A DNA stretch of 48,946 nucleotides from Spirogloea muscicola (taxonomy: Eukaryota > Streptophyta > Zygnematophyceae > Spirogloeales > Spirogloeaceae), in assembly GCA_009602725.1 (NCBI GenBank), contig WELB01000055.1, forward strand, positions 576,112 through 625,057, in the 5' to 3' direction. The notes beneath the pieces are model-generated. The model did no database searches. It was not told the DNA's origin and saw nothing but the letters and a program-made list of their open reading frames with translations. Of this stretch, positions 2,716 to 39,158 are shown piece after piece (position 1 is the stretch's first letter; each line of letters starts with the position of its first letter). The position numbers and the translations under genes are program-made.

Positions 2716-3130
2716 GGGGAGCCGGTGGACTTTCCTGCAGCCGGGTTGCTAGCGCAGGTGTACCGGATGCGCTTGGCCGTCTTGGTCAATGGCCCGCGCG
2801 CTGCACCTGCGGGCCGGCAGAGGCCCTCGGTGCTGCCTCTGGCTCTGGCCAGGGGACCCACTTCCAGGAGCCTAGAGTCTCTGACCTGAGGCTGCTTAGC
2901 AGGGGTTACTGAGTGATCCGTAGCTGCTTTGTTTCTTTATGTGCTTGTTTTTCTTAGCGCTTCCCTGGCCCCCTTCTCCCCCTTCCTTTGTTGATTCTTA
3001 TTTGGGCTGGCTTTTCCAGCCCCTATTCTCAATGGGCGAGCACATTCTCTTTGGGGCTGGCCTCTCCCAGCCACCAGTCAATCTGGCCGCGCTTCCCCTG
3101 CTAAGCAGGCCTCAGGTCAGAGACGCTAGG
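2716..3130 (+). mobile_element. LINE C-terminus and hairpin-type 3' UTR
   Basis: A frame reads GLLAQVYRMRLAVLVNG, matching FLAQVFRMRLAI of the 688-1043 fragment. Shortly after, QGTHFQEPRVSDLRLLSRGY ends with TGA near 2909. The 3' UTR contains a T-rich stretch, a CCCCCTTCTC block, the stem GGGCTGGC/TCCAGCCC near 3005-3025, then TCAATGGGCGAGCAC. A second imperfect stem (GGCTGGCC...CCAGCCAC) follows at 3055-3075. This is one of the better copies of the hairpin-tailed 3' end. Confidence 0.6.
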
Positions 3131-3499
<369 letters not shown>

Positions 3500-3500
<1 letters not shown>

Positions 3501-4583
3501 CCTGGCCCCCTTCTCGTACTTTGTCCATTCTTTTTCGGGCTGGTTGTTCCAGCCCCTATTCTCAATGGGCGAGCACTTTCTTCTGAGAGATGGAGGAGGG
3601 TGACGAAGCAGAAGGGGGAGGAGGCGGAGAGGATCCGAGCGCGCTCTCGGATGTCGTGCGGCGGAATGCGGCTGCTGATATTTAAGAATCGGCTGTAAAC
3701 TGCCGTGCGGCGAAAGAAGCTCCACCACCTGTCAGCTCTGTCCACAAGCGCAGTGTAGCGGGCCTGGGCCCGCAGGTCGGGGGTGTGCGCAAGGTGGATG
3801 AACGGAACGACCTGCTTCGACATGTCGGGGTGGGCCGCCAGGAGCGCGACGCGGGCGCGCGGAGAGCAGCCTGGAAGTTTGTGCATCATTGCACGCCACT
3901 CTTTTACCTCCTTCCAGCCTTGCTGCACCTTTCACTTGTAGATTGATGCACACAACTCAAGCTGGTGTACCGCTGTGTCAGTCACAGTGGCAGTTGACTG
4001 CAAATTTAGGGAAAATCTCAGCGACCACGAGCTGCAGCATGCTCCTACATAAACAAAGTTGCCACTTCAGAGTGTCTAAGATGTCACCATAAGATAGCAG
4101 CAGTCGCGACTGGCTGCAGTTGCTTGCCTTAGTTCAGTCAGCTAAAGTAGATGCCTGATAAGGCTCCCACGGCAAGGTGGGCACATGCAGCTCCATGTAC
4201 AGGCCTGGACCACTTCAAGCAGCTGTATGCAGACTGTGCACATCTTTGTACAGTGTGTATGCATCAAGGCTGCGCGTAATGGTTGGCGGTATCTTGGGCA
4301 CAAGAAGCTGCCAGAAGGAGCCCACTATGAGGCCCATGTCTGTGGAAGCCAAGCTTCGAATGCCTGCCATTGGCAGCCCGGGCACCAGTCAATAGTCAAT
4401 TTTGCCCACATGTACGCCAGCGACTGGGCAACCATGAGCAGTTGGGGCATCACGGCTTCCGGGGTGGGTGCAGTGGCGGTTTGCTAGGCAGCGCGCTGAG
4501 GGAGCGCGAGACTGGCGATCGCGACCGTGTCAAGTCCGTATCTACGAGCCTTCCTGAGCCTCCTCCAGTGCTACCGAGCTGAG
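3500..4583. other. Hairpin-tail repeat, then unassigned sequence
   Basis: At 3500-3590 lies another plus-strand copy of the hairpin 3' tail, ending in GGGCGAGCACTTTCTTCTG. On the minus strand 3590-3928 is open and reads, in part, HPDMSKQVVPFIHLAHTPDL and DRADRWWSFFRRTAVYSRFL. I do not recognise this peptide. It could be a retroelement piece or the remains of an exon. From 3960 to 4583 I see no convincing gene. It is the 3' flank of the minus-strand receptor kinase gene and probably includes its 3' UTR. Confidence 0.35.
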
Positions 4584-7500
4584 TCAACAAACAGATTGCT
4601 GCATGTCGTCAGTGGCGCCGTGGGCACATGGAAAGGCTTGCCGCCTCACAATGCAGAGCTGGCATGAGCGCATCTTTGCAAAGCTCACCCTGCCGGCGAC
4701 ACTCAAGCTGCGCGTGACCTCTGCACGGTCCACCTCCTCGGAGTAACCCGCATTCACGCTGCCTGTCACGCTGCCGCCGTCGTCCTCACTGCTGCTTGCA
4801 TAATCCCGAACTCCTGACACCCGGCTTCGCTGCCCGACCTGCAATCACGGTGCAGAAATTTGGCTGCTCATTGCACTGCTTAATGACTCCTCCAAGACTT
4901 GGTATCTTCCCCGAGCAGACAGACACCATGCCTACTGTCAACTTTCATAGGATAGAAAGTACAAAGGCAAAGGATCATGAGCCACACTCACCAGGAGACC
5001 AGCCGTGTCCAGTGAGTCAGTGTCGGTCTCTAATGCGGGTGGGATAGCCGCAACGAGTAGCTCGGCGACCTGCGACATGCGGGGGCGGTCCTCGGGGTCG
5101 TGCTGGAGGCATTTGCTGGCGATCTTGGCAAACGCTTGGACCGACTCAGCGGACATTGTGCTGTTGAGCCGCAGGTAGGGGTCCACCATGGCCATGAGCT
5201 GCTTCTTGTACTCCAGCTGCGGGAGGAACTGCGCATGCAAGTGGCCCAGACAGCGAGACAGTGTGCGGCGGTCAGCTTACAGAACAAAGCAGACGAAAAA
5301 TGTCATACTCGGAAGTACGGTTACAATTACAGTTACATTCACATTTACAAGTACAGCTACAGTTACAATCACCATCATGTTTACAACTGGCACAATCCTG
5401 GTCGCGCTCACCCAGGTGAGGAGCGATTGTTGGCCTTTTGGCCTCATAGGATCAAGGGGCTTGCGGCCTGTGAGCAGCTCGAGCAGGACCACACCGACGC
5501 CGAACACATCCCCTGCAAGGTCCTGCAGGCCGCCACTGCGCTGCTCCGGGGCCTGGTATGGCACCGGGCCGCCTGCTGGAGTTTGTCCAGGTTGGACCGC
5601 GAGCACCGACGTGCCCTCAAGCAGCGCTGCGATTCCATACTCCACAATCTGCTCAAGCACCACAGTACCACCCATTACTAGCTGTCTTGACCTCCCGTAG
5701 ATGATGCCAAAGGGCTCTGTTTGTTTGTGATGGCGAAGCAAGGCGGACCTTGGCCCGGAAGGTCGAGTCCAGCTTAATGCTGGACGAGCTGATGTCACCA
5801 TGCAGCATGCCAGCCTTGTCGTGGAGGTAAGCCAGGCCCTCAGCGACATCCGCCGCCACGCGAACGCGCCTCTGCCAGGTCAGGGCCCTTCCAAAGCGTA
5901 GGTCCCCTGGAGGCAAAGATGATGCAAAGGATTGATACATCCAGAATCATGTGTGCCAACAGAAAGGCCAGGCCATAGTGGTGCTGGCCTGTACACAAGG
6001 TTACGAGAAGAGATCTACAGAGGCTAGCATCACACAAAGCTTGGCCTGAGCTGCGCAGCTCTTCATGGCTACTCAGCACTGCTTGAGCAGTGCATGCAGT
6101 GACTCACCATGGAGATGGTCCTGGAGGGAGCCATTGGCCACCTGCGCATACACGAGCATGCGCTCCGGTCCCTCACTGCAGCAGCCGATTAGCGGCACAA
6201 GGTAGGGGCTGTTAAGCTGCTGCATGGCCGCTCCGCGCCGGAGCATGGCAGCTCTGTCCAGGGACTCGCCAGCATGAAGAACAACCACAACGGCATTGTC
6301 CCCCATGAGAAGATGAGCCTGTTCAAGCACAGCCGAAGGTGTTATCAGCTGCCTTCAACATCGAAAGACGAGTCCCGGCTGTGACAATCTGATGCAAAGC
6401 AGAACAGGTCCATGAGAAGCCACAAGCAGGAAAAGATGCTGATAGTGCAAGGCACTGCAGCAAGATTTTCATTGCTTGAATATGCTAGCCAGTCACCTTG
6501 AAGCTGCGGCCGAAGCTGCTCTCCGTCAAAACATTGGAGTTGGCGAAGCCGTCCGTGGCACGGTGCAGGTCGGCCAGGGTGAACACCGCTGGGTGCATGG
6601 TCCCCTCGGGGATGGTGGGCTCCAAGATGGTGGGTGGGAGCCGAGAGGGCAGTGGTGGGGGAATAGTGATGTCTTCCTCGGCGAAGCTTATGCGCTTTGC
6701 AACGGCCCTCAAGGGAGAGGCAGAGGGTGCCTGGCGACCCTCTTCCAGGTCCTTGAAGGCGGAGTCCGACACCAGCATCTGGCTTGGTGAGGGCAGCATC
6801 TTGGCTGGAGTCCCCAAGTCGCTTGCGACATCCTCCATTGCCGCCTTTGCCCAGCCTGCCATCCAGGGAAGCACGGTAGGGCTGTCGGTTAGCAGGGACA
6901 ATAATTGTCATTGCCGTGATGACCAAAGCCATAACAGTCGAATATGCAACAGCTGCAGAGCTACAGAGAGCAAGGTAATGCTCTGATGCATCAGCAAGCT
7001 AGTGCTTGCAAGCATAGTAAGTGAGTACGCACCAGCCTTGCGAGTGTGGGCGGTGGGCCGTGGGTAGTCAGGGCTGATGGACGGAGCCGCCCTGGACGTC
7101 CCCTGCCGCCTGCGCCAGTAGAACCAGTAGAACAGGGCCAGCCCCACGACCAGCGCAAGTCCCCCGCAGACTGCTCCGGCCACTACTCCAGCGTTTGAGC
7201 TACTGTGCTTCTTGCCTCCTCCTGTCTGAGGCGGCGTGATTGCTGTGCAGGAACAATACACAAGTGACTCATTGGTCGATGTCCACAAAACCCTTGTGCA
7301 CCTTGGGACAACTGCGCCTTGCTTCTGTACCATCAGTTGCTCGTGTAAACCAGCTCCTCGTCCTCTTCTGCTTGCTCCTGAGAGCTACTATTGAATTGAC
7401 TGGAATATCAGAATTGACTGCGAGAATGCCTTGGTTGTGGTACTCGAATCAGATCTCTACTTAACCTCCATCACAATTGTGCTGGTAGTAGCTGCCATAG

Positions 7501-9892
7501 ATGAACCTATACTGAGTACAGTGTCTTACCTGTGACTGTGTAATTCTGGTACTCTGAGGACAAAGTGAGGCGGTGTGATTGGATCTTCTCTGTGATGTCC
7601 TTCACGGCCTTATTGTCTAGTGACATGCCCTGCAGAATCCAATTTACCTCTGAGTTGCAGCAACTACATGCAGGACACATCCAGCTGCTACAGTCAAGGA
7701 TTGGCTTGCACAATCCATGCATTGCACAGGATGCTTCGGATAAGCCTGACCTTGAGCGGGAGGACATTGATGGTGAGGATGACACTTCCAGCCTGCCGCT
7801 TGACCACCTGGAGCTGTCGCTCCTGCAAGCCCAGCTGGCCAGCCAGCTCTTGGAGCAAATGGCCCTCCATGGTCCAATTGTAGCTGGCGTACTTCAGGTC
7901 GACAAAGCGCAGCACGAGCACCAGAGGGAAGACGCACAGGCAGCTAGACGTATTGTATGGGCTTTGGACCTGGTCTTGTTGACAGGGCCTGCAGGCTGGC
8001 GGCGACAGTGGGGTTGCTGCAAGAGGCGAAGGAGTGATGGTTGTACGAGGAGGGGGCTGAGGTGTAGGCTGGGGAGCTGCTGTGAGGGGAGGCGGAGGAC
8101 CTTGAGTGTAGGGAGGGAGTGCAGAGGGAGGGAGGACGGGAGGCAGCAGCGGGCTGGCGGGCAGGGGCACAGATGGAGGATATGCTGGAGAAGGTGCGGC
8201 CTGACTTGTAGTGGGCGCGCCGATGGGCGCGCCCCGCATGACCTGGCTGTTGGGAGGGTAGGCTCCAGGCGGGGCTTGTGGCGGCTGCTGCTGTGGAGCA
8301 GGAGTTGGTTGTAATGTAACAATGGAGGTGGGAGGTGAGGATGGTGGAGAGCTGCCAGGTTTTGGGTAGAGCATGGGTGCTGAAGCTGGAGCTAGGGGTG
8401 TTGGAGTCCTGGTAGCAACCGGCGGACTTGCGCTTGCTGGTGGAGGGGCCGCAGGCAAGGAGGGAGGCTCTGCTGGCGGCTCACTGGAAGGAGGCGGGCT
8501 TCCAGGAGGAGGGTTTTCAGGAGGAGGGCTTCTGGGGATGGAGGGAGGAGAGGGAGCCGGTGCCGTCGGCGGATGCTGCGGAGGCGGCGCCTTGGAGGGT
8601 GGCGGAGGCTGCGGAGGTGTGTTCTTAGAGACAGGCGGAGGTTCAGAGAGTGGAGCTTCTGAAGAGGGTGGAGTCGCATTGTCTGGGCACGGTTCTCCGG
8701 GGGTGAGTGCACACAGATCGTTCCCTGGTGTGATCCTGAAACATGGAGAGCCCCATGAGAAGGTCATATCGTCAGGCCTTTTACTACTGATGATGAAGGC
8801 CACATCCTTGGCGTTGTGCCAGTGGCAAGCCTAGGCTAGCTGTAGTCCGTGCATCAAGCGCAATGGGGAAACACAGCAATCAGTGGTATCAGTAACCTCA
8901 AGTCTGGTATGTTGCTGAAACTAGCTGGCACACTCCCTGTGAAGCTGTTGTTGTAGAGGTGCCTGCATGCAAAGCAACAAGGCCCATCAAGTCATCACGA
9001 GCTTGGGAGACCTAGTAGCCTTGAGAAGAATTTGACATGAGAGGGCTCGTTGCTTCTCACAATTTAGCAGCCTAGACGTGATCGGTGTGCAGCATATGGC
9101 ATGTTGTATTTATGCAACAGTATGACACTAAGCTCTCTCTGACTTCCAACCACGGCGCGGATGGGGACTGATGAGCAGTCAGGCAGGGCTGGGCTTACAT
9201 CTGCAAGCAGGACTTGAGATTGCCCAGCTCGCTTGGCAGCTTTCCGCTGAGCTCGTTGTTGAAAATCCACCTGGGAAACTCCATCACAACAACAAGCTGT
9301 CCTTCAGGACCTTCGTCGTCAACAAGCACATGGCTTGTCCGCACGGAGCGGTGTCAACGCGGGGAGGTGCCAGGGGTCCTCACAAGATCTGGAGCGAGTC
9401 GAGCTGGCCGAGCTCCGGGGGTATGTGGCCGTAGAGCGCGTTGTCGTAGAGATATAGCTGCTGCAGGTCCGCCAGCTTCCCCAGCTCCTTGGAGAGCTTG
9501 CCCTTGAGGCCCAGCCCGCTGAGATCCCTGAGCACGCACTTGCCGGAAGGCCGTCTCGTCAATGGAGAGCGCTGAACGTAGAGATCGTTACAGACCACCC
9601 CCAAGGAGGCCATTGTGTGATCAATGACTAGAGACCTAAGCACGGTAGGCCGAGACGTAAGGGTGGCTCACAAGTGAGTTATGGCGCCGTCGGTGCAGGT
9701 GACACCCCGCCAGGTGCCGTCGCAGGGGTCCTGGCCGCTCCACGATCCGAACACGTCCGATTGGCCGGGGAACTCCGCCATGAAAGCGGCGAGCGGCTCC
9801 GAGGACGGCGCAGCGGCCACGGCCGCCGCAAATCCCGCCGCCGCTACCACTGCGAGCCAGGCCCGGAGCGGCGGCCGGCCCCGGGGCGCCAT
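4584..9892 (-). CDS. LRR / proline-rich receptor-like pseudokinase
   Basis: Thirteen exons join in frame to about 1095 residues: 9892-9672, 9527-9384, 9270-9199, 8962-8897, 8735-7751, 7629-7530, 7242-7033, 6855-6497, 6318-6108, 5906-5749, 5681-5412, 5228-4992, 4838-4584. A signal peptide (LRAWLAVVAAAGFAAAVAAA) is followed by an LRR N-cap (GSWSGQDPCDGTWRGVTC) and about four LRRs on phase-2 exons. Exon 5 holds a long PPP/SPP-rich extensin-like linker and a CRPCQQ...CLCVFPLVL region like that of ALE2-type plant receptor kinases. The membrane helix is AVCGGLALVVGLALFYWFYW. The kinase domain starts at FTLADLHRATDGF. The VAIK lysine is absent (NAVVVVLHAG), HRD is HGD with no following Lys or Asn (HGDISSSSIKLD), and DFG is replaced (VEYG). 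It is probably a catalytically dead plasma-membrane receptor or co-receptor. Strubbelig-type receptors are an alternative relative. Confidence 0.85.
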
Positions 9893-10664
9893 CGCGGCAG
9901 CCCCGCGGCGCCTGCCTGCGGCCAGCGGTCTCTCCGCGATCGACGGTGCGTGGCAGCTGCCAGGCCCGAAAGCTGCAGCGCTGCACCTCGTTTTCTACGC
10001 CAAGCTCGCGCGCTCAGACGAGGCGTGAGGCGGGGACAGGGGCGCAGGAATGGCGGGGGGCGGGGGTAGCGAAGGGGGGGGNNNNNNNNNNNNNNNNNNN
10101 NNNNNNNNNNNNNNNNNNNNNNNNNNNNNNNNNNNNNNNNNNNNNNNNNNNNNNNNNNNNNNNNNNNNNNNNNNNNNNNNNNNNNNNNNNNNNNNNNNNN
10201 NNNNNNNNNNNNNNNNNNNNNNNNNNNNNNNNNNNNNNNNNNNNNNNNNNNNNNNNNNNNNNNNNNNNNNNNNNNNNNNNNNNNNNNNNNNNNNNNNNNN
10301 NNNNNNNNNNNNNNNNNNNNNNNNNNNNNNNNNNNNNNNNNNNNNNNNNNNNNNNNNNNNNNNNNNNNNNNNNNNNNNNNNNNNNNNNNNNNNNNNNNNN
10401 NNNNNNNNNNNNNNNNNNNNNNNNNNNNNNNNNNNNNNNNNNNNNNNNNNNNNNNNNNNNNNNNNNNNNNNNNNNNNNNNNNNNNNNNNNNNNNNNNNNN
10501 NNNNNNNNNNNNNNNNNNNNNNNNNNNNNNNNNNNNNNNNNNNNNNNNNNNNNNNNNNNNGGCGCCCACACGCGAGCGGGCGCGCCGGGATGTCTGCGCC
10601 CTCCCGCGGCCGCCCTCGGCGCTGAGGCGCCGGCCGCCCGCGGCGCGGCCGGCCTCCCCTTCCG
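9893..10664. promoter_or_regulatory. Shared spacer of divergent receptor kinase genes (with gap)
   Basis: The two receptor kinase start codons face away from each other, at 9892 (minus) and 10665 (plus). The spacer is about 770 bases on paper, of which 10082-10560 (479 bases) are Ns, so its true length is unknown. The sequenced edges are extremely GC-rich, like the 5' ends of the other genes here. By position it must hold both promoters, and a bidirectional promoter is plausible. No TATA box or specific site can be seen. Confidence 0.55.
10082..10560. other. Assembly gap (479 Ns)
   Basis: Run of unknown bases in the GC-rich spacer between the divergent receptor kinase genes. The first base after it is 10561. 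The gap length may be nominal. Confidence 0.99.
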
Positions 10665-13600
10665 ATGGCAGGGCCGGCGGCGGCGAATGCCGGCCGCTCT
10701 GCCCTGGCTTTGCTGGCCCTTCTCGTCTCCTTAGCTGCGGCCGAGACGGCCGCCGCCCAGCCCACTGATGGCTACCTCATCAATTGCGGGGGCCCGGCCT
10801 TCATCGACATCTTTGGACGGCAGTGGACTGCGGACTCCAGCTACACAGGGGGAGTCCGGGCTGTAGCCACGGCCATTGACATCACAACCCTTACGAACGA
10901 CCTGCAGGGCTCAGCAGGTAACGCCCAATCGTCCTGTTTAGCAGCGTCATTGCTTCTCTTCGTCACAGGGAGGGCAATGACAGACTGAAGAGTGCTATGA
11001 GGCCGCTATACAACTTTTCTTTGAGGGGCAGGCTTCACAAGGATGCCATGTGCTCTGCAACGCTAGTTTCGTGCCGTGGGCGCGGTCTTGTCGTCATAGA
11101 CGGCTGCCTGCATGTCTCTTGTCCTGGTAGAGTGGCCAGCGTCAGGCAATAAGTCCATATCGTTACTGTTTATATGCACATGTTCGCCAACTCAATAGGC
11201 AACAGTAGGTTCAGTGTGGAGCATTTGTACAGCATGTGCTCTTGTAGGTTGGTATTATTGTGTTACGACATATCATAAGGGGCCTCAAAATGGGTTACTG
11301 AAGGAAGGTGAAGGTGACTAACCATTTATGCCATGCATGCCATGCAAGCCTACATGACTTTCACACGAGCCCAGTCATCTTCAATGTGCTGAGTACTCTT
11401 TTGAGAGCTCAGTGTGTGTGCGTGTGGGTGCTTGTTCTTGTCTGTATTGCAGATCCTCAACTATATGCAACTGCTCGTGCCTTCAGCCTGAGGCCAACGG
11501 ATGCCATGAACGAAAGCCTCTCTGCAGGCTCTTATAATCTGACGACAGACTTGAAGGGGCAATACCTTCTGCGACTCCACTTTGCTTTCCTACTTTACCA
11601 GGCCCCAGCATTTGATGTCCGTTCAGCAACTTTTGCCGTGGTTGCTGGCGGGATCTCTCTTTTCCCTTCCATGAATGTTATCACGAGATTGCAAGATGTT
11701 GGTCGTTCAGGTAAGCTGGCACTGTGATGTCACCTGCAAAGTCAAAGACCATGACCTTACAATCTGGAGGCAAATTGCTGGCAAGGAGTGGCGAAGTCTC
11801 ATGAATGTCTTGCTCTGCTGCGCAGAGGTCCGAGAATTCCTCCTTCCAACACTTGGAACGCCGTACATTCTTGTCGACTTCCAGCCCACTACAAGAAGCT
11901 CATTTGTGTCTGGCATTGAGCTCATCAATGTTGCAACAGTGTTGGATACAGGAGCAGTAAAGGGTCATCATGCTCATGGTGACATTCCAGCCAAGATTTT
12001 CAATGGAAGCCTATATGGCAACAAGGTCACTCCACACATGTTGCTGGAAACGCTTCATAGGATCAATTGTGGTGGAAATGTGGTGACCCCAGATCTTGAT
12101 TCTGTGGGACGTACATGGGCAAAGGACTACGGATGGGCAATGTAAGGAGATAGGAGGCCAACATAACTCCCCAATATTATTCCTCACAGTTTCCAAACAT
12201 GCATTCATATGCATACCAGCCATTCCGTGCCCATCAATCGGCTGACTTCACTGTTGCTTTTCACACAGCCTTGAAGAGTCTTCTTTAGGGGCTATTGTAA
12301 TGTGATACCTGGGTCATGTCTTGCAGTCTGGGCTCAACTGTCGTTTCCACAAGCAATGACATCAATGGGACTGGCATTGGACCTGCATTACTGCCACAAG
12401 TTGTCTACCAGTCACAACGAGCAGCGATTGCACTCTCTAATTTTCAGCTATCTTATGCTCTGCTCGTGGACCCGGGTTTTCAGGTTTTAATCATATCTCC
12501 CTTTTGACCTGATAATGACAATGGCCTCCATGCATGCTGTTTCTGCCAGCCTGTCACAGGGCCTAGAATGTCTGCTATCATTATAGTCAATAACGAGCAA
12601 GCAGGACTATTTCTTCACCCATTTAAGAGTTGTGACATTCAGGAGCATATTGACATTCTTGCATGTTGTTGCCTTTGCTTTCACTGGTACATTGTGCTGA
12701 GCTGTTGTTATGGCGGTGGTCGGCGGCAGTACTTGGTCAGGATGCACTTTGATGACATTGGTTCAGAAGAAGGAACAAGCAATCCTACTCCTCCCGTAGG
12801 GGATCAAAGTTTTGACTGCCTTATCAACTACAGCCCAGTGCTCATCAATTTCAGTCCTAAGAAGAGTGCTGGTGGAACTTTTTCAGCAATATACAAGGAT
12901 TACTTTGCAAGCTCCTCCCGCAGCGTAAGTCTGGTCAAGAATCCTCACGTCCTCATGGTATCCGAGCTAGCTTGTTGCCCTTGATTCCTGCACTGAGATA
13001 TAGCTTCCAGATCAAGTCAGTCTGTACTAAATTCGGCCTTAATGCAGATACCTCTATACTCACATGATGACCTTCGTGACTTTGTGGCAGTCTCTGCTTG
13101 AGATTGATCTTGCACCGTCCCTTCAGTCTGGGTTGTCAATGGGCCCAACAATCTGCGGGGTGGAGATCTTTAAGGTAGATTGTATACAGTGCAAATCGTG
13201 GTCACACTTGTGAGACAAAAGTACGTCGATTTGTATACCGCAGTAGGATGTAACGTACAATACCTTGTCATGCTGGGGTGTATTTCACTCTGCACAAGTC
13301 GAATATTGACTATACAATCCAGTAGCATGACTGAATCTTCCTTCCAATATCTGTGGTTGGTAGCAAACTTTATGATGTTTGCTGGAGGTGATATGAAGCC
13401 CAATTGTAGCTGATAACTGCTCTTAAGTGCATCTCAGCTGGTCAAGCTTGTCATTTAAGTCGTGGTCACTGCTGTTCCAGGTAAGGGTCATCAGCGCCAA
13501 GCTGCGGGCTAGTGGGCCACCTGAGAAACCACAATCACCCATGGTGAGGGCACCCGTACCTCCTTCAGTGACAGCCAGTGCCCCAAGCCCTGCAAACCCC

Positions 13601-16600
13601 TCCAGCGTCTGGTCTAGAGAAGCGCAGACTCTACTGGCCATCAAGTATCTCTTGGGCAATCCCAAGAGCCTCACCTCGTGGGGTGCCAACACGATGCCCT
13701 GCGACAAGAACCCGTGGGCAGGTAAGCATGGCATCATTGATGTCATACATTGGTACAAATACACTGCAGTGTATATTTATAGGCCTCAATCATGAGATTC
13801 GTACTTAGCACATGATAAGTGCAATCTGCCAAGCTCGTGATATGCTTTCATTGTCAAAATGCAGGTGTTGGTTGCAGTGGCACTGTAGTCACGTCCATTA
13901 TATTGCCGGTTTGCACTTCACCTCTGCTGCTGCTGGGTTGATCAGCATTTGTTATACCTTTCTGACATGCTGGATGGAGGGGTTACAAGAGAGCATTGCA
14001 CCTTGTTAAGCTGATGACTTAGGTCAATGCAGGGAAGCAGTCACATTCACCTCATATATGTACCAGCTGAAGATCCCACTAACATACATTCCTGAGTATG
14101 CAGCACTTTGGGCTCTCTGGGGCGCTCCCTAGTCAGCTGGCTAATCTCCAACATCTCCGGGACGTCTGGCTCAATGATAATGAGCTGACTGGAACATTGG
14201 CATCCACTATTGGCCAACTCAAAAGTCTCATGACTCTCAGGCTGCATAACAACACTCTGAAAGGCTCAATTCCAGCAGCCTTTGGCCAGTTGACTTCCCT
14301 CCAGGAGCTGACTCTAGATTCCAACGACTTTTCTGGTCTGTTATTGGCCTGCTTTAATCAAGCATTCAACTTGGCTGCATGTCGATTTCTCCTGCATTTG
14401 AAGTGGTGCTTGCAGTTTTTGGATGGTGTTTCATCTGTCAACATCTCCTCTAGTTGCAGACAAACGATAAGGATCCTTCTGGGCATGTTGCAATTCTCTC
14501 ACAAACTTCTGAGTTTACATCCCACGCAGGTCCTCTGCCCCTGGGCTTGCTGAACCTGCCATCCTTAGCTAACAGTGGCGATAATTTCTCAATCGCTCGC
14601 TTTCTGCCCGGCAATGCCAAGTTGTGCATTCCATCAGATGTTCATGTGCTGGTTCAGACAGGCCTACCTACTTGTCAAGAGGGTAGCAATGGCAAGGGTG
14701 GCAATGTGGGAACTATTGCTGGTATCGTGGCGGCTGTTTTAGGGACCTTGGGTGCCGCCTGTCTTGTGGCAACATCTATTATCTGCTGTCACTGGTACAG
14801 GCGCAAAAGGTGAAGCTTACTCTTGTGTGCCTTCTCTTCAAAGGTGTTACTGCAGTGCATGATGTCACATATTCTGCAACCCCCTTTGGACACTACTTTG
14901 ATGATATCGTTCGAGCAGCCTGCCGTTCATTGCTGTTTGCCATGCAGCAGACAAATAAGGATTTGTACGCAGTTAGTGGTTCCGAATACACCTTTCATTC
15001 TCGGCAATGTATCTGGCCTTGCCTTGTGTGAGGGGATGCATAGATTGCATGATGTGCTGTACTGAACATCAGCTGGATGTGCTCATCAGGAGGATGGAAA
15101 GGTCGCAATTGTTAGTAGGACGGATGAGCCGCACTAGAAGCACCAGCAGCCTCAACACTCAGAGTCTGGGCATCATGGCTGGCAAGGACTTCACACTGGG
15201 CGAGATGAGAAGGGCCACAAAGGACTTTGCCAATTCCTGTATGATTGGTTCTGGTGGCTTTGGCAACGTCTACCGGTACAAGGCCACTCCTGTTTCCATA
15301 TCCATATTCCTATTTTTGCCTGTATAGTTGATTTTGCTAGCTGTGCATGAGTGGCCGCCAAACACATGCTAGCAGATAGTTGGCTGGCTTATAAAAATTA
15401 AGGTCTTTAGAGAGGATGCAGGAATGTTCCACAGTACTTTCACATCATCATATGATGCTGTCCCTGGATGGGTACAGTGGTACCTTGCCAACGGGTCACG
15501 TGGTCGCCATCAAGAGGCACATACAAGGGAGCGGGCAGGGCAGTGTCCAGTTTTACATGGAGCTCGAAGTACTGTCCAGAGTTCGACACCGGCACCTCGT
15601 GTCCCTCATTGGCTACTGTCGCGAGCGTGGGGAGATGATCCTCGTGTAAGCGCTCCACATGCACAACCCCCAGCTTGATATGAGAAAATTTTGCCATCGG
15701 ATGTACGCTGGGTCTCCTTCTCGTGCAATATATTTGGCTCGCATGTTCTGAACCCAAAGACTAATTACCGGCAGACGCTCTTCATCAGGTATGAGTTTAT
15801 GTCGCGGGGCACGTTGAGAGAGCACCTGGTGGGAGACACGCCCACGCCAGATGTGCCCCTGGGCTGGAAAAAGCGTCTCGAGATCTGCATTGGTGCTGCC
15901 AAGGGCGTCGACTACTTGCACCGTGGCTTGGCCCCTCCAATAATCCACAGGTGTTCAGATTATGTGAATTACACTAGGCGCTTCATACTTGGTGTTGTAA
16001 AGTTTGATTGCTTGCAAAAACCTTTGTTGATCACATGTGTGCTGCTGTACATTACAGGGATGTGAAGTCTACCAACATCCTTCTGGACACAGATTTCTCG
16101 GCCAAAGTGGGGGATTTTGGCCTCTCACACCTTGGGCCGCAGAAGGACGAGACCCATGTGTCAACGGCTGTCAGGGGCAGCTTTGGTTACGTCGACCCTG
16201 AATATTACAAGTGGCTCAAGCTCACAGACAAGAGTGACGTGTATAGCTTTGGAGTTGTGTTGCTAGAAACCATCGCTGGGAGAAAAGTCATCGATTTAAC
16301 ACTTTCCATGGACACATTGCAGGTGAGATTGGATAGTGCTCTTGCATCACAGCAGTCCTCACAGCATGTGCTGCATCTTGGCTCCTGCAAATGTGTTGTA
16401 GGTGCTTGTTGTAGAGTTTAATTCATCATTACTCTCCACTTGATTGCTTCAACCTTGTAAAACGTCATCAGGTCAATCTTGTGGAGTGGGCAAAGCCACA
16501 CATGGTTAGCGGAAGTTTTGAGGCCATCGTGGACCCCAAACTCAAGGGCGCCTACTCCCCTGCCTCAATGACAAAGGTTGCCGAAGTTGCCAGCGCGTGC

Positions 16601-16945
16601 TTGCAAGTAAGTCCTGCTCCACTTTGCTGCGATGCATCATGTGGACCAAGCACCAGGCGCTTGACTTTCTTCACTATTGAAATCATGTACCTTGCCACTC
16701 TGCATGGAGCTTCTTTTAAGCATGGTGCCTTATCTGGTGCCATTGGAGTGTGCAAAATCGTGTATCCAGTATTCAAGTTAATCCATACAACCACGATGTA
16801 GCACCCTCTATGGTGATCTTCCAGAACATGAAGACTGATGCAGGGTGCTGTGCTCATCCAGGAACCATCGAGCTTGCGACCGTCCATGGAAGAGTGTGTG
16901 CGGGGCTTAGAAGAGGCGCTTCGTTTAGAGAGTGCGGCCTTATAG
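10665..16945 (+). CDS. Malectin-like / LRR receptor kinase (active)
   Basis: Sixteen exons join in frame to about 1025 residues: 10665-10917, 11453-11710, 11826-12141, 12327-12483, 12730-12924, 13091-13174, 13481-13721, 13865-13908, 14104-14335, 14530-14809, 15090-15275, 15478-15645, 15789-15950, 16058-16322, 16472-16606, 16844-16945. A signal peptide ([19 protein letters not shown]) is followed by a malectin-like domain ([20 protein letters not shown]; later [13 protein letters not shown]), an LRR N-cap ([18 protein letters not shown]), about three LRRs, and a membrane helix ([20 protein letters not shown]). The kinase has [14 protein letters not shown] (catalytic Lys), [15 protein letters not shown] and YVDPEYY, so it should be an active Ser/Thr kinase. 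The kinase most resembles the CrRLK1L (FERONIA-like) type, whereas malectin plus LRR is the layout of the LRR-I type. It acts at the plasma membrane, probably in cell-wall or glycan sensing. The last exon encodes [20 protein letters not shown] and is duplicated elsewhere in the window. Confidence 0.9.
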
Positions 16946-18381
16946 CAAGAGTGGAGCATGTCACAGAGCAGCACCCCTTTGTACCCTTACAACAACCCTT
17001 TCCAACAGTAGACAAATTTATATTGACATTTTGGTTTCTCCAGAGCTCGAAGTAGCTCCTGGCTTGTAGGTATACACGCTACTCGCGAGTGGATCGACAT
17101 TGGTGATAGCGTTTCATCAGTTCTAAAGCTGCGCCTTGTAGAGATTGTTACCAGTGTTGCTAAAAATGCGTGCCCATGAGCTCCTGGTGAGTCGTTTTTT
17201 TATCCCACTTGTAGTGGCAAAGCAAAGCATGCTTTGTATTGCAGTGCACTGCAACACAATGCACTGCATCGTCCAGCATCCAAGGTGCCAAGACAGTAAA
17301 GATTGGCAATCTGGGCTAATTATGGCACAACCAGCCCAAGATGCAAGCCCTGCATGACATGGCAACTTCATGCTGACCTTCGGAGAGCAATACTGGTGGA
17401 AGGCTGAGGGCTCTTACAATCAAGCTGTGATTATGTTACAACAACGTGTATAACAGGAAAAGCATGCCATGCACTACGACTTCCGAAGGTCGCAACTCTC
17501 TTTAAGCATAGTCTCAAGCATGGAGTGTTGAGATTTCAGATCTCTTGATTGTTGGTGTCGCACATTTTGGCCGCATCCAAGACTCACCAGTCCCCGCCTT
17601 CTCCAATCTGAGTCCTCATCTGAGCTTTGCCCCTCTTCCAAGCAAAGCGCCCGTCACAGTGGTGCAATTTGAGATCAACTCATGGCGGCAGAAAAAGACC
17701 AAGCTAGCACAGGCTTCGGCTAGCTGCAGACAGAGGTTAGACAACCATATGCTCTGCAAGCAACCATGGTGGGTGGCAGCCATAGCTAGGGCGCACCCGG
17801 AGCAGCAGTGCGTACGCCTTAACATCAGCACTATGCTCGTATTGGGCACCCCTGAGTCACTAAGAGCGCTACCATGGCTCACAGGCTGAGTGAGATGGTT
17901 ACTCAGCCCATGCGTTGATTCACGATACTACCACATTTGACAAAAAGGTTTCCCAGCCGCAACTGCTAGCTCTTTATGATTCATATCCACCAAACTACTA
18001 CTCAAATCTCGACGTGTTAGTATTGCACCTTACTGTTACTCAGCAATCTCGTGCCAGCACCATTATTGTGCGTGTACTTGCAGGCCCACACTTATGTCAC
18101 AATTTCGTGCATTTGAAACAAGCACCTTGGGTCCCTGCTGCAAGCGAGCCAGTGGACGCCGTAAAAGTAATGCAAGCAATGGTCGTAGTAGCGAAAAGAC
18201 ACCTTATTCTCTTTTGCTGCCATTCAAGATCCCGTTAAATGACACTATTTCCGCTCTGACTCTGAATGCAAGCACCAGCAACGGCGCGAGCATTGCTAAT
18301 GGCGTCATCTTAGCCGAACTACTGATTATCATCTTCAGCAATGTTCGCTCACTTTGAGCCTTTTAGAAGTGGCTAGGGGGT
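16946..18381. repeat. 3' flank of the active kinase gene, multiply duplicated
   Basis: No gene is seen. The sequence after the kinase stop, up to about 18110, recurs in order near 28345-29050, 31010-31454 plus 32060-32330, and inverted at 28010-27270. Landmarks are GCCCATGAGCTCCTGG near 17170, GCAGTGCACTGCAACACA near 17240, CATCCAAGGTGCCAAG near 17280, and CTTGCAGGCCCACACTTATG near 18080. A stretch at 17370-17790 is missing from the other copies. This sequence is either the gene's 3' UTR and flank or an older repeat next to it. Confidence 0.6.
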
Positions 18382-22681: not shown

Positions 22682-22830
22682 NNNNNNNNNNNNNNNNNNN
22701 NNNNNNNNNNNNNNNNNNNNNNNNNNNNNNGGGAGGGAGGGAGGGAGGGAGGGAGGGAGGGAGGGAGAAGGGAGGGAGGAAGGGAGGGAGAGAGGAAGAG
22801 AGAAGTGGGGAGGGGAAATGCGTGTGTATT
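22586..22830. repeat. (TCCC)n-(TC)n / gap / (GGGA)n microsatellite
   Basis: A TCCC run (about 22586-22620) passes into a TC run to 22681. Then come 49 Ns (22682-22730) and a GGGA run to about 22830. Pyrimidine repeats left of the gap and the complementary purine repeats right of it mirror the 3131-3500 locus. Confidence 0.95.
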
Positions 22831-27145: not shown

Positions 27146-28050
27146 AGCCACCTGTCATGCCAAGCTCAATCCCCTTGAATGTGAGCTTTACAGCTTTATA
27201 TGGCAGCTACCATGGGGAGTGGTTGATATGCCTTTCAGTTGTGATGTAGATTTGGGCCTGCAATCAAACGCACGAAGGTGTTGCTAACACGAGATTGCTG
27301 AGGACTAGTAAGGTGCAATAATACCCCGTACCAAGGATTGCTCAGTGATTTGTTGGATATGAATCACAAATCAGCCCAGATGCGGCTGGCGAACCATTCT
27401 GTCATATGCGGTAGTATCATGGACCAATGCATGGGCTGGGTAACCATCTCACACAGCCTAGTGGGCCGTGGTTGGGCTCCTAGTGATTGATGGGTGCCCC
27501 GGTACTTCTGGCATAATGCTGAATCTGAGGCGTCCGCTCTGCTGCTCTGCTACCCTAGCATGCAAACCTGCATCATCTTGGCACCTTGGATGCTGGACGA
27601 TGCAGTGCAGTGTGTTGCAGTGCACTGCAATACAAGGCATGCACTGCTTCTACACCATCCATGGGGGACAAATTTGATCCGCCAGGAGCTCATGGACACG
27701 CATACTTAGCAACACTGTCAAAAATCTTGACGGGCGCGCTTTACAACTGAAAGACTCGCTAGCCCATTGTCAATCCAGTCACAAGTAGCGCGGATATCTA
27801 CAAGACAGGAGCCCTGGAGGAACCCAAATGTCATTGTATTTGTCTAAGATCTGTTGAAAAGGTCTGTTGTAGGGTACATAGGAGTGCTGCTCGGTGAAGT
27901 GCTCCACTTTCTCCATAAGGACGCACTCTCTATTTGAAGCGCCTCTTGTAAGCCCCGCACACACTCTTCCATGGACAGTCGCAAGCGCGATGTTTCCTGG
28001 ATGAGCACAGCTCTCAACTCTCACTTCTTGGCTCTCACCTGCATCGTATG
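27146..28050 (-). pseudogene. Inverted copy of kinase last exon and 3' flank
   Basis: Read on the minus strand this starts with the last-exon-like peptide ([20 protein letters not shown], about 28015-27935) and continues through the same 3' flank as the gene at 16844-18110. The flank landmarks CCATGAGCTCCTGGCGGATC near 27685, GCAGTGCACTGCAACACA near 27612 and CATCCAAGGTGCCAAGATGA near 27580 are all present. The TAG stop of the parent exon reads TGG here. It has none of the other kinase exons, so it is a gene-end fragment. Confidence 0.7.
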
Positions 28051-29165
28051 ATGAGCTTCAGTACAAGAAGACTGACGCAGGTTGCCGTGCTCGTCCAGGA
28101 ACTATCGAGCTTGCGGCCGTCCATGGAACAGTGTGTGTACGGGGCTTAGAAGAGGTGCTTCGATTAGAGAGTGCGTCCTTCTAGCAAAAGGAGTGGAGCA
28201 GATGAGGCGCATGATGAGCTTTCAGAGCAGAAATACTGAGGCTGGTTGCTGTGCTCGTCCAGGAACCATCAAGCTTGCAACCTGCCATGGAGTGTGTGCA
28301 GGGCCTCAAAGAGGCGCTTCGACTAGGGAAAGTGTCCTTATAGCAAGAGTGGAGCATTTCACAGAGCAGCACTCCTTTGTACCCTACAACAAACCGTTTC
28401 AACAGATTTTAGACAAACTTTACAATAGATTTTGGTTCTTCCAGAGCTTGATGTAGCACCTGGCTTTAGGTATCCACGCTACCTGTGACTAGATCTACAA
28501 TGGCAATGTAGAGCTCTCAGTTGTAAAGCTGCGCCTGTGGAGGTGGTTGACAGTGTTGCTTAAGAGGCGTGCCCATGAGCTCCTAGCGGATCATATCTGT
28601 CCCCCATTGATGGTGTCGAAGCAATGCATGCATCGTCCAGCAGTGCACTGCAACACATTGCACTGCATCGTCCAGCATCCAAGGTGCCAAGTCGATGGAG
28701 GTCTGCAACCTAGGGTGCACCAGAGCAGCAGGGCGGACGCCTCGAATTCAGTAGTATGCCAGAAGTACCGGGCACTCATCAGTCACTAGAAGCGTTACCA
28801 CGGCCCACTAGGCTGTGTCAGAAGGTTACCCAGCCCATGCATTGGTCCAAAATACTACCGCACTTGACACAATGATCCCCCAGCTGCATTTTCTGGTGTC
28901 ATATATTACGAAATTAACGTATCTACTGACCCATACTTGGCACGGGGTATAATTCTACCTTACTGTTATCTCAGCAGTGTGTGCCAGCACCAAAGTGTCT
29001 GCAGCTACTTGCAGGCCCGCACTTGTGTCACAGCTGAAGGCCTATCAAGTACCCCCCATGATTGCTGCCATACAAAGCTGTAAAGCACTTTTAGCAGCTC
29101 ACTTGCAATTAGATCAAACATTGGCATGACAAGTGGCTCCTTGTTGTCAGGCCGGTAGCCAAAAA
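28051..29165 (+). pseudogene. Two tandem copies of kinase last exon plus 3' flank
   Basis: Two copies of the terminal kinase exon lie about 155 bases apart. The first (about 28080-28195) has one extra base in the TGTGTGTACGGGG stretch, which shifts the frame. The second (about 28240-28350) stays open as VAVLVQEPSSLQPAMECVQG, then LKEALRLGKVSL and TAG, with one codon missing relative to the parent. The conserved 3' flank follows to about 29165, ending TTGTTGTCAGGCCGGTAGCC. This arm and the 27146-28050 arm form an inverted repeat with a short centre near 28050-28075. Confidence 0.7.
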
Positions 29166-30734: not shown

Positions 30735-31454
30735 CATGAGGCGCATGATGAGCTTCCAGAACAAAAAAGACTGATGCAGGTTGCCGTGCTCATCCAGGAA
30801 TCATCGAGCGTCCATGCATGGAAGAGTGTGTGCAGGGCTTAGAAGAGGCGCTTTGATTAGAGAGTGCGTCCTTACTGCAAAAATGGACTGGATGAGGCGC
30901 ATGATGAGCTTCCAGAATCGAATCGCTGATACAGGTTGATGTGCTCACCCAGGAACCACTGAGCTTGCGACCGTCCATGGAAGAGTGTGAACGGGGCTTA
31001 GGAGAGGCGCTTTGGATAGAAGTGCGTCCATATAGCAACAGTGCGGATTTCCACATAGCAGCACCACTTGTATCATACAACAAACCTTGCATCTACGTAA
31101 ACTACACCAAACCTTTTCAACGAATCTAAGACAAACTTTTGAAGATAATCCGGTTCCTAGAGAGCTCGAAGTAGCTCCTGGCTTGTAGGCTTTCACGCTA
31201 CTTGTGTCTGGATCGACAATGGCGGCAGCAATTCATAAAGCGCCCTTGGAGACTGTTGACAGTGTTGCTGAAGATGCGTGCTCATGAGCTCCTGGCGGAT
31301 CACAGCTGTCCCCCATTGATGGTGTCAAACCAATGCATGCTATGTATTTCAGTGCACTGCAACACAGTGCACTGCATCGTCCAGCATCCAAGGTGCCAAG
31401 ACGATGGAGGTTTGCGAGCTAGGGTGCACCGGAGCTGCGCGGACGCCTCAAATG
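30735..31454 (+). pseudogene. Two tandem copies of kinase last exon plus 3' flank
   Basis: Two terminal-exon copies about 155 bases apart (about 30776-30850 and 30933-31020) each follow GCGCATGATGAGCTTCCAGA. The second reads [20 protein letters not shown] and then GLGEALWIEVRPY. The first lacks part of the LRPSM block. The 3' flank follows: GCTCCTGGCTTGTAGG near 31175, CTCATGAGCTCCTGGCGGAT near 31281, GCAGTGCACTGCAACACAG-type sequence near 31350, and CATCCAAGGTGCCAAGACGA near 31385. At 31454 the flank is interrupted by a LINE end and resumes near 32062. Confidence 0.7.

Positions 31455-34728: not shown

Positions 34729-39158
<4,430 letters not shown>

Follow-up and report, generated by a model that had tools for sequence, protein, structure and literature searches.

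Two large receptor-like kinase genes start head to head in the DNA of the alga Spirogloea muscicola, one of them with a kinase that has lost many catalytic residues. The locus raises the question whether a dead and a live receptor really stand side by side here as intact genes, and whether they work together. The window analysed is a stretch of 48,946 nucleotides on contig C55 (C55:576112-625057), and the genome searched comprises 153.1 Mb in 471 contigs; positions without a contig name are those of the window. In our best explanation, to which we give a probability of roughly 0.7, a non-catalytic receptor (gene A) and an active receptor kinase (gene B) diverge from one short 5' region.

Layout and gene models

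An earlier, sequence-only reading had described two receptor-like kinase genes head to head about 0.8 kb apart, with intact reading frames over 13 and 16 exons. We built the exon models of both genes by hand from the sequence; they rest on it and on the second copy on contig C77, and the script-checked models agree with that description. Gene A (minus strand) has 13 exons and encodes 1084 aa, and gene B (plus strand) has 16 exons and encodes 1019 aa. All introns are GT-AG with compatible phases, there is no internal stop, and the pair is also kept exon by exon on C77.

4584-9892, minus strand: gene A, a receptor with LRRs, a Pro-rich region, ALE2_N, a transmembrane (TM) segment and a pseudokinase (splicing, Pfam, conserved splice sites on C77)
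10665-16945, plus strand: gene B, a receptor with a malectin-like domain, LRRs, a TM segment and an active-type kinase (splicing, Pfam, PDB match, C77 copy)
10082-10560, no strand: assembly gap of 479 N (counted; 463 N at the same place in the C77 copy)

The ATGs at 9892 and 10665 are separated by 772 bp, of which 479 are N, the gap length being an assembly estimate. Measured between start codons rather than mapped transcription starts, this spacing is below the 1 kb that defines a divergent, bidirectional promoter pair. The earlier reading would have given up the pair for a gap of tens of kb; the gap is short on C55 (479 N) and C77 (463 N), yet 22.9 kb long at this place on contig C40.

Elsewhere in the window, 36401-37165 contains one or more exons of an SGT1-family gene (PF07093, 138 bits), a long CT microsatellite lies at about 3120-3560, and a second N gap (22682-22730, 49 bases) is found within another CT repeat.

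Copies of the pair in the genome

The same A/B pair is found, inverted, at C77:569601-584300, with a gap of 463 N at the matching place. Because the whole pair is present again on C77, the observation of paired genes is more than chance. The splice sites of both genes are all kept. For gene B, 14 of the 16 exons are equal in length between the two contigs and the other two differ by whole codons, while 12 of 13 are equal for gene A, whose last exon differs by 2 bases and gives a different C-terminus. This 2-base difference changes the final about 20 residues of A (4584-4650). Protein identity between the copies is 94.7% for A and 95.7% for B, and DNA identity is 93% over the A half and 84-90% over the B half.

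The DNA search, in which 9 of 11 candidates were scored, overlooked the pair on C77, so the genome searches used here can miss real copies. A third copy of B starts at C40:701331, and the 22,912 bases immediately upstream (678419-701330) are N. Protein searches gave close copies of A only on C55 and C77 (55 of 747 and 131 of 405 candidates scored), and a tblastn search of A against C40:601001-719000 returned four weak matches, all within the B copy. To the left of A, the comparison of C55 with C40 yielded 12 scattered short matches and no collinear run; C55 itself is N at 569985-576111. For a third A on C40, loss and concealment in the 22.9-kb gap would look alike.

The genome of S. muscicola is described as triplicated (PMC7994812). 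In our genome search, the malectin-like matches fall into two three-contig sets (C14/C16/C38 and C5/C41/C54) and otherwise occur in twos. A further divergent malectin-like gene pair lies at C14:859212-870479 and C38:186464-197722, and N runs adjoin the 5' end in four of the five malectin-like loci inspected (L009, L010, L012 and L013, not L011). Judged from the two copies of our pair, the A-B linkage is older than the duplication; it would count as a single inheritance, weaker than conservation across species.

The DNA search matched only the B half on C40, and we therefore considered that the pair might be an assembly mis-join across the gap. A mis-join would fit the unequal GC content to the left and right of the gap, the start of the C40 match at the gap edge and the 22.9-kb gap of C40 at this place. 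This candidate was set aside once C77 showed A and B head to head: the same order and orientation with a near-equal gap, though in the same assembly, make a mis-join at the C55 gap very improbable.

Outer part and membrane segment of gene A

8897-9892, minus strand: exons 1-4, with signal peptide (by eye), LRR N-cap and four LRRs (by-eye count) (splicing, Pfam)
7997-8683, minus strand: Pro-rich stretch in exon 5 (splicing, composition)
7235-7963, minus strand: ALE2_N domain, residues 426-532, exons 5-7 (Pfam, cysteines)
7103-7180, minus strand: TM segment, about residues 551-576 (sequence; TM_ErbB1 match under the cut-off)

The outer part of A had been called LRR plus extensin-like. Its LRR half is borne out by Pfam, with LRRNT_2 at 24.4 bits (cut-off 20.7) and LRR_1 at 32.2 bits (cut-off 20.6). 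The extensin-like half is a loose description, and Pro-rich fits better: Pro makes up 37% of residues 166-425, where there are seven SPP and two SPPP but neither SPPPP nor YxY. Moreover, that description overlooked an ALE2_N domain with CxxC...CxC cysteines, whose Pfam score is marginal (27.9 bits against a cut-off of 27). The cysteines, at residues 416, 419, 433 and 435, overlap the start of ALE2_N, and an alignment of four sequences, both copies of A among them, has the CxC in every one. The ALE2_N region had no structure match in PDB up to E = 10. The PDB search with the outer part matched HPCA1, with the best stretch within the LRRs, and the cysteines of HPCA1 presumably resemble the CxxC...CxC of A.

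Searching the genome with ALE2_N returned 9 matches (E up to 1) spread over six contigs, and only the one on C20 is above the cut-off (the match on C8 has 17.8 bits, under it); the search gave no match at gene A itself, where introns split the domain. The loci on C20 and C8 carry HRDFKASN, DFGLAK and AVK or AIK, and their kinases are predicted to be live. With its short LRR, Pro-rich stretch and Cys-bearing ALE2_N, the outer part of A probably faces the cell wall.

The pseudokinase domain of gene A

5058-6535, minus strand: pseudokinase domain, residues 707-978, exons 8-12 (Pfam, PDB match, alignment)
6283-6285, minus strand: codon at the VAIK Lys position, encoding Val (alignment)
5779-5802, minus strand: catalytic loop HRDxKxxN changed to HGDISSSS, with Arg, Lys and Asn lost and Asp kept (alignment)
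5634-5642, minus strand: DFG changed to EYG (alignment; the C77 copy likewise has EYG)

The kinase domain of A scores 101.6 bits in Pfam (cut-off 23.1). We aligned 10 kinase domains, read the columns by the usual motif names (VAIK, HRD, DFG, etc.) and built a tree from them. The alignment agrees with the claim that this kinase lacks the VAIK Lys, the HRD Arg, Lys and Asn and the DFG, and it adds further losses: the alpha-C Glu is replaced (Arg and Ala, respectively, at the two candidate columns), and two glycines are gone from the glycine loop, which reads TESSFG. The HRD Asp, the APE and the alpha-F Asp are retained, and all the losses are identical in the C77 copy. Gene A thus combines lost catalytic residues (alignment) with a recognisable kinase fold (Pfam), as a pseudokinase does at the level of sequence. 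In PDB it matches 5xd6 best (160.7 bits), and in the tree of 10 sequences A stands beside 5xd6, apart from the C20 and C8 kinases; with a branch length of 1.2 and a support of 0.857, the subfamily of this kinase is best taken as provisional.

The kinase fold of A most likely lost phosphate transfer and would act through protein-protein contact, as in STRUBBELIG or BIR2 of land plants. STRUBBELIG is reported to function without kinase activity (PMC3095605), with binding of partners through the kinase fold as the proposed mode, and BIR pseudokinases are reported to act non-catalytically and regulate BAK1 (PMC10317173). On the other side, A retains the HRD Asp, and ILK1, a plant pseudokinase, is described as having confirmed activity (PMC9403797). 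An unusual catalytic or nucleotide-binding activity of A would be in line with the three retained elements and with a fold under selection, but the DFG Asp, VAIK Lys, loop Asn and alpha-C Glu are all gone and the glycine loop is broken, and we regard such activity as improbable.

Selection between the two copies

Counts of dN/dS between C55 and C77 were made by the method of Nei and Gojobori. For the kinase of A the ratio is 0.147, from 13 synonymous and 6 nonsynonymous changes; the share of nonsynonymous changes (6 of 19) is far below the 75.1% expected without constraint (P = 7.8e-5). The kinase of B has a ratio of 0.052, and dS is 0.061 for the A kinase against 0.20 for the B kinase. The dead kinase of A is therefore preserved by purifying selection between the copies. 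The earlier view, that an active receptor kinase has a probable pseudokinase receptor as its neighbour, is supported.

Within gene A, the tract 5400-6900 is 97-99% identical to C77, introns included, against a background of 92%. Gene conversion or another sequence exchange between the copies may explain this tract and may account for part of the low divergence of A; such homogenisation would affect divergence more than the dN/dS ratio.

The many lost catalytic residues and the unlike C-terminal ends of the two copies could also suggest that A is a decaying pseudogene. Against decay, neither copy has lost a splice site, the reading frame is intact in both as far as the last exon, and dN/dS over residues 1-1060 is 0.222 (P = 1.4e-16), which leaves a pseudogene scarcely credible.

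Gene B

10779-13483, plus strand: malectin-like domain, residues 39-422 (Pfam)
13616-14334, plus strand: LRR cap and four LRRs (by-eye count; Pfam LRRNT_2 and LRR_8)
15238-16906, plus strand: kinase, residues 737-1007, catalytic motifs present (Pfam, PDB match, alignment)

Gene B had been read as a malectin-like plus LRR ectodomain with a kinase that has every catalytic motif, and both Pfam and the 10-domain alignment confirm it: Malectin_like scores 69.2 bits (cut-off 24.5), LRRNT_2 23.9 bits (cut-off 20.7), LRR_8 37.1 bits (cut-off 27) and the kinase 144.3 bits (cut-off 23.1). In PDB, the best match of the kinase is FERONIA with 316.0 bits, followed by 2qkw as the next protein (281.8 bits) and SYMRK (280.6 bits), and the 10-sequence tree groups it with FERONIA at a support of 1.0. 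The best 60 PDB matches of the outer part are all LRR matches. A FERONIA-type kinase and homoeologous copies fit the streptophyte lineage proposed from the letters. We take gene B to be an active receptor kinase, which probably senses the state of the wall or a secreted ligand.

The 3' end of gene B (16810-17294, including the last exon) is repeated in both orientations 10-15 kb downstream, at 27576-28011, 28047-28691 and 30745-31402, and further copies of it occur on other contigs (C77:556492-567103 and C442:20151-20502). C55 and C77 differ by 17 changes in the signal peptide of B (10665-10772), of which 16 alter the amino acid (P = 0.02, uncorrected for the choice of region), and the mature protein is conserved.

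The shared 5' region

9893-10664, no strand: shared 5' region, GC-rich, candidate bidirectional promoter (CpG o/e, copy comparison)

Beside the gap, CpG o/e is 1.02 on the A side and 1.14 on the B side, compared with 0.61 and 0.48 over the genes. Between C55 and C77, the upstream sequence is identical at 189 of 189 positions for A and 100 of 104 for B, while the introns are identical at 1855 of 2041 (A) and 2776 of 3177 (B). The perfect match upstream of A has P = 1.4e-8 at the rate of the A introns and P = 0.003 at a rate of 97%. The mismatch nearest to the gap on the B side lies 54 bp from it, and the comparison of C55 with C40 gives 83 of 92 there against 2638 of 3160 in the B introns.

The longest identical run in the 12-kb alignment, 234 bp at 9848-10081, includes 45 bp inside the first exon of A and was reached in none of 2000 shuffles. 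The runs that follow in length, of 159 and 135 bp, both lie within gene A and are likewise beyond nearly all shuffles; identity is thus clumped, and the shuffles understate chance. The identical run touches the gap edge, and it is possible that the gap was filled with reads of the other copy. The 5' region fits a constrained two-way promoter, and A and B would be transcribed apart from this one short CpG-rich region.

Do the two receptors act together?

The best explanation can be extended: the products of A and B may form one receptor/co-receptor module, co-expressed from the shared two-way promoter, in which the dead A sets specificity or gates the live B. This extension excludes the rival account, in which A and B are accidental neighbours with unrelated tasks. 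S. muscicola has about 27,000 genes. From this gene number and 142 receptor kinases, we estimate roughly 0.2 divergent receptor-kinase pairs by chance, which is rare but not negligible; the number of receptor kinases is the one reported for the species (PMC10868138). The other divergent malectin-like pair (C14, C38) also speaks for accidental neighbours, while the 5' region is unusually conserved for such an account, unless the conservation is an assembly effect. We lean towards accidental neighbours.

A joint module draws on the head-to-head arrangement on two duplicated segments, on the finding that no identical run at the locus is longer than the one at the 5' end of A, and on the short LRR outer parts of both proteins (Pfam; by-eye count). 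It also has parallels in land plants, where FERONIA-class kinases are described as cooperating with LRR-extensin proteins, although a single complex is unclear, and where the pseudokinase BIRs regulate BAK1 (PMC10317173). However, the linkage on C77 is inherited and not independent, the third copy of A is not located (C40 gap), and divergent neighbours in Arabidopsis are reported to be either alike or significantly different in expression (PMC4222868). A module of A and B is a tentative reading that we consider doubtful, and we give about one chance in four to physical contact between the two proteins.

A still more specific form, in which a FERONIA-type malectin-LRR kinase and its own dead LRR/Pro-rich/ALE2_N partner make up a dedicated two-gene unit under one two-way promoter, an ancestral wall-sensing module, seems unlikely. 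If it were true, a dead receptor anchored in the membrane and a live receptor would fill the roles that LRX proteins and FERONIA took on later, in land plants. Among the listed papers on head-to-head receptor-like pseudokinases or on CrRLK1L and malectin-like receptors of zygnematophytes, none describes such a pair in its title or opening lines, which is a weak negative.

Comparison with known receptor families

Gene B shares with the CrRLK1L family (FERONIA) a tandem malectin-like ectodomain (residues 39-422, 69.2 bits) and a FERONIA-type kinase, but in B an LRR cap and LRRs separate the malectin-like domain from the membrane (LRR_8, 37.1 bits). To our knowledge, CrRLK1L ectodomains have no LRR. 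An algal relative is CpRLK1 of Closterium, compared here by description: malectin-like outer part and FERONIA-type kinase are alike, while B has the LRR cap and LRRs. A 2016 review places CpRLK1 between CrRLK1L and malectin-LRR kinases, perhaps by way of additional extracellular sequence; it notes that other CrRLK1Ls do not have the additional extracellular sequences found in CpRLK1 and in MLD-LRR-RLKs, and reports that knock-down of CpRLK1 blocks gamete release (PMC5002434). With the MLD-LRR kinases (SYMRK, LRR-I), B shares the order of a malectin-like domain followed by LRRs, whereas its kinase matches FERONIA better than SYMRK, the one member of this group in the comparison (316.0 vs 280.6 bits). 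We leave B as a candidate intermediate between CrRLK1L and MLD-LRR kinases.

Gene A resembles STRUBBELIG and the LRR-V group, compared by description, in the order of LRR, Pro-rich region, TM segment and kinase. It has four LRRs by eye, while SUB is reported to have six (PMC3095605), and it has an ALE2_N domain and lost catalytic residues; because of the four LRRs and ALE2_N, we did not file A under STRUBBELIG. With ALE2 and other ALE2_N receptors it shares an ALE2_N domain before the membrane (marginal score), but it adds LRRs, and its kinase is dead rather than an active one of the extensin group, which is why A was not filed under ALE2 either. LRX proteins with FERONIA offer an analogy only, a wall protein of LRR and Pro-rich parts that acts with a malectin-like kinase (PMC10317173), and A differs from them by a membrane anchor and a kinase fold and by having neither SPPPP nor YxY.

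In summary, A and B are real, preserved variants of known receptor kinds. Zygnematophytes are described as sister to land plants (PMC11096116), and an LRR-bearing FERONIA-type kinase beside a preserved dead-kinase receptor of mixed LRR, Pro-rich and ALE2_N make-up bears on the way in which the large families of land-plant receptors were put together. The A/B pair is also a concrete case for asking whether the pairing of dead and live receptors predates land plants.
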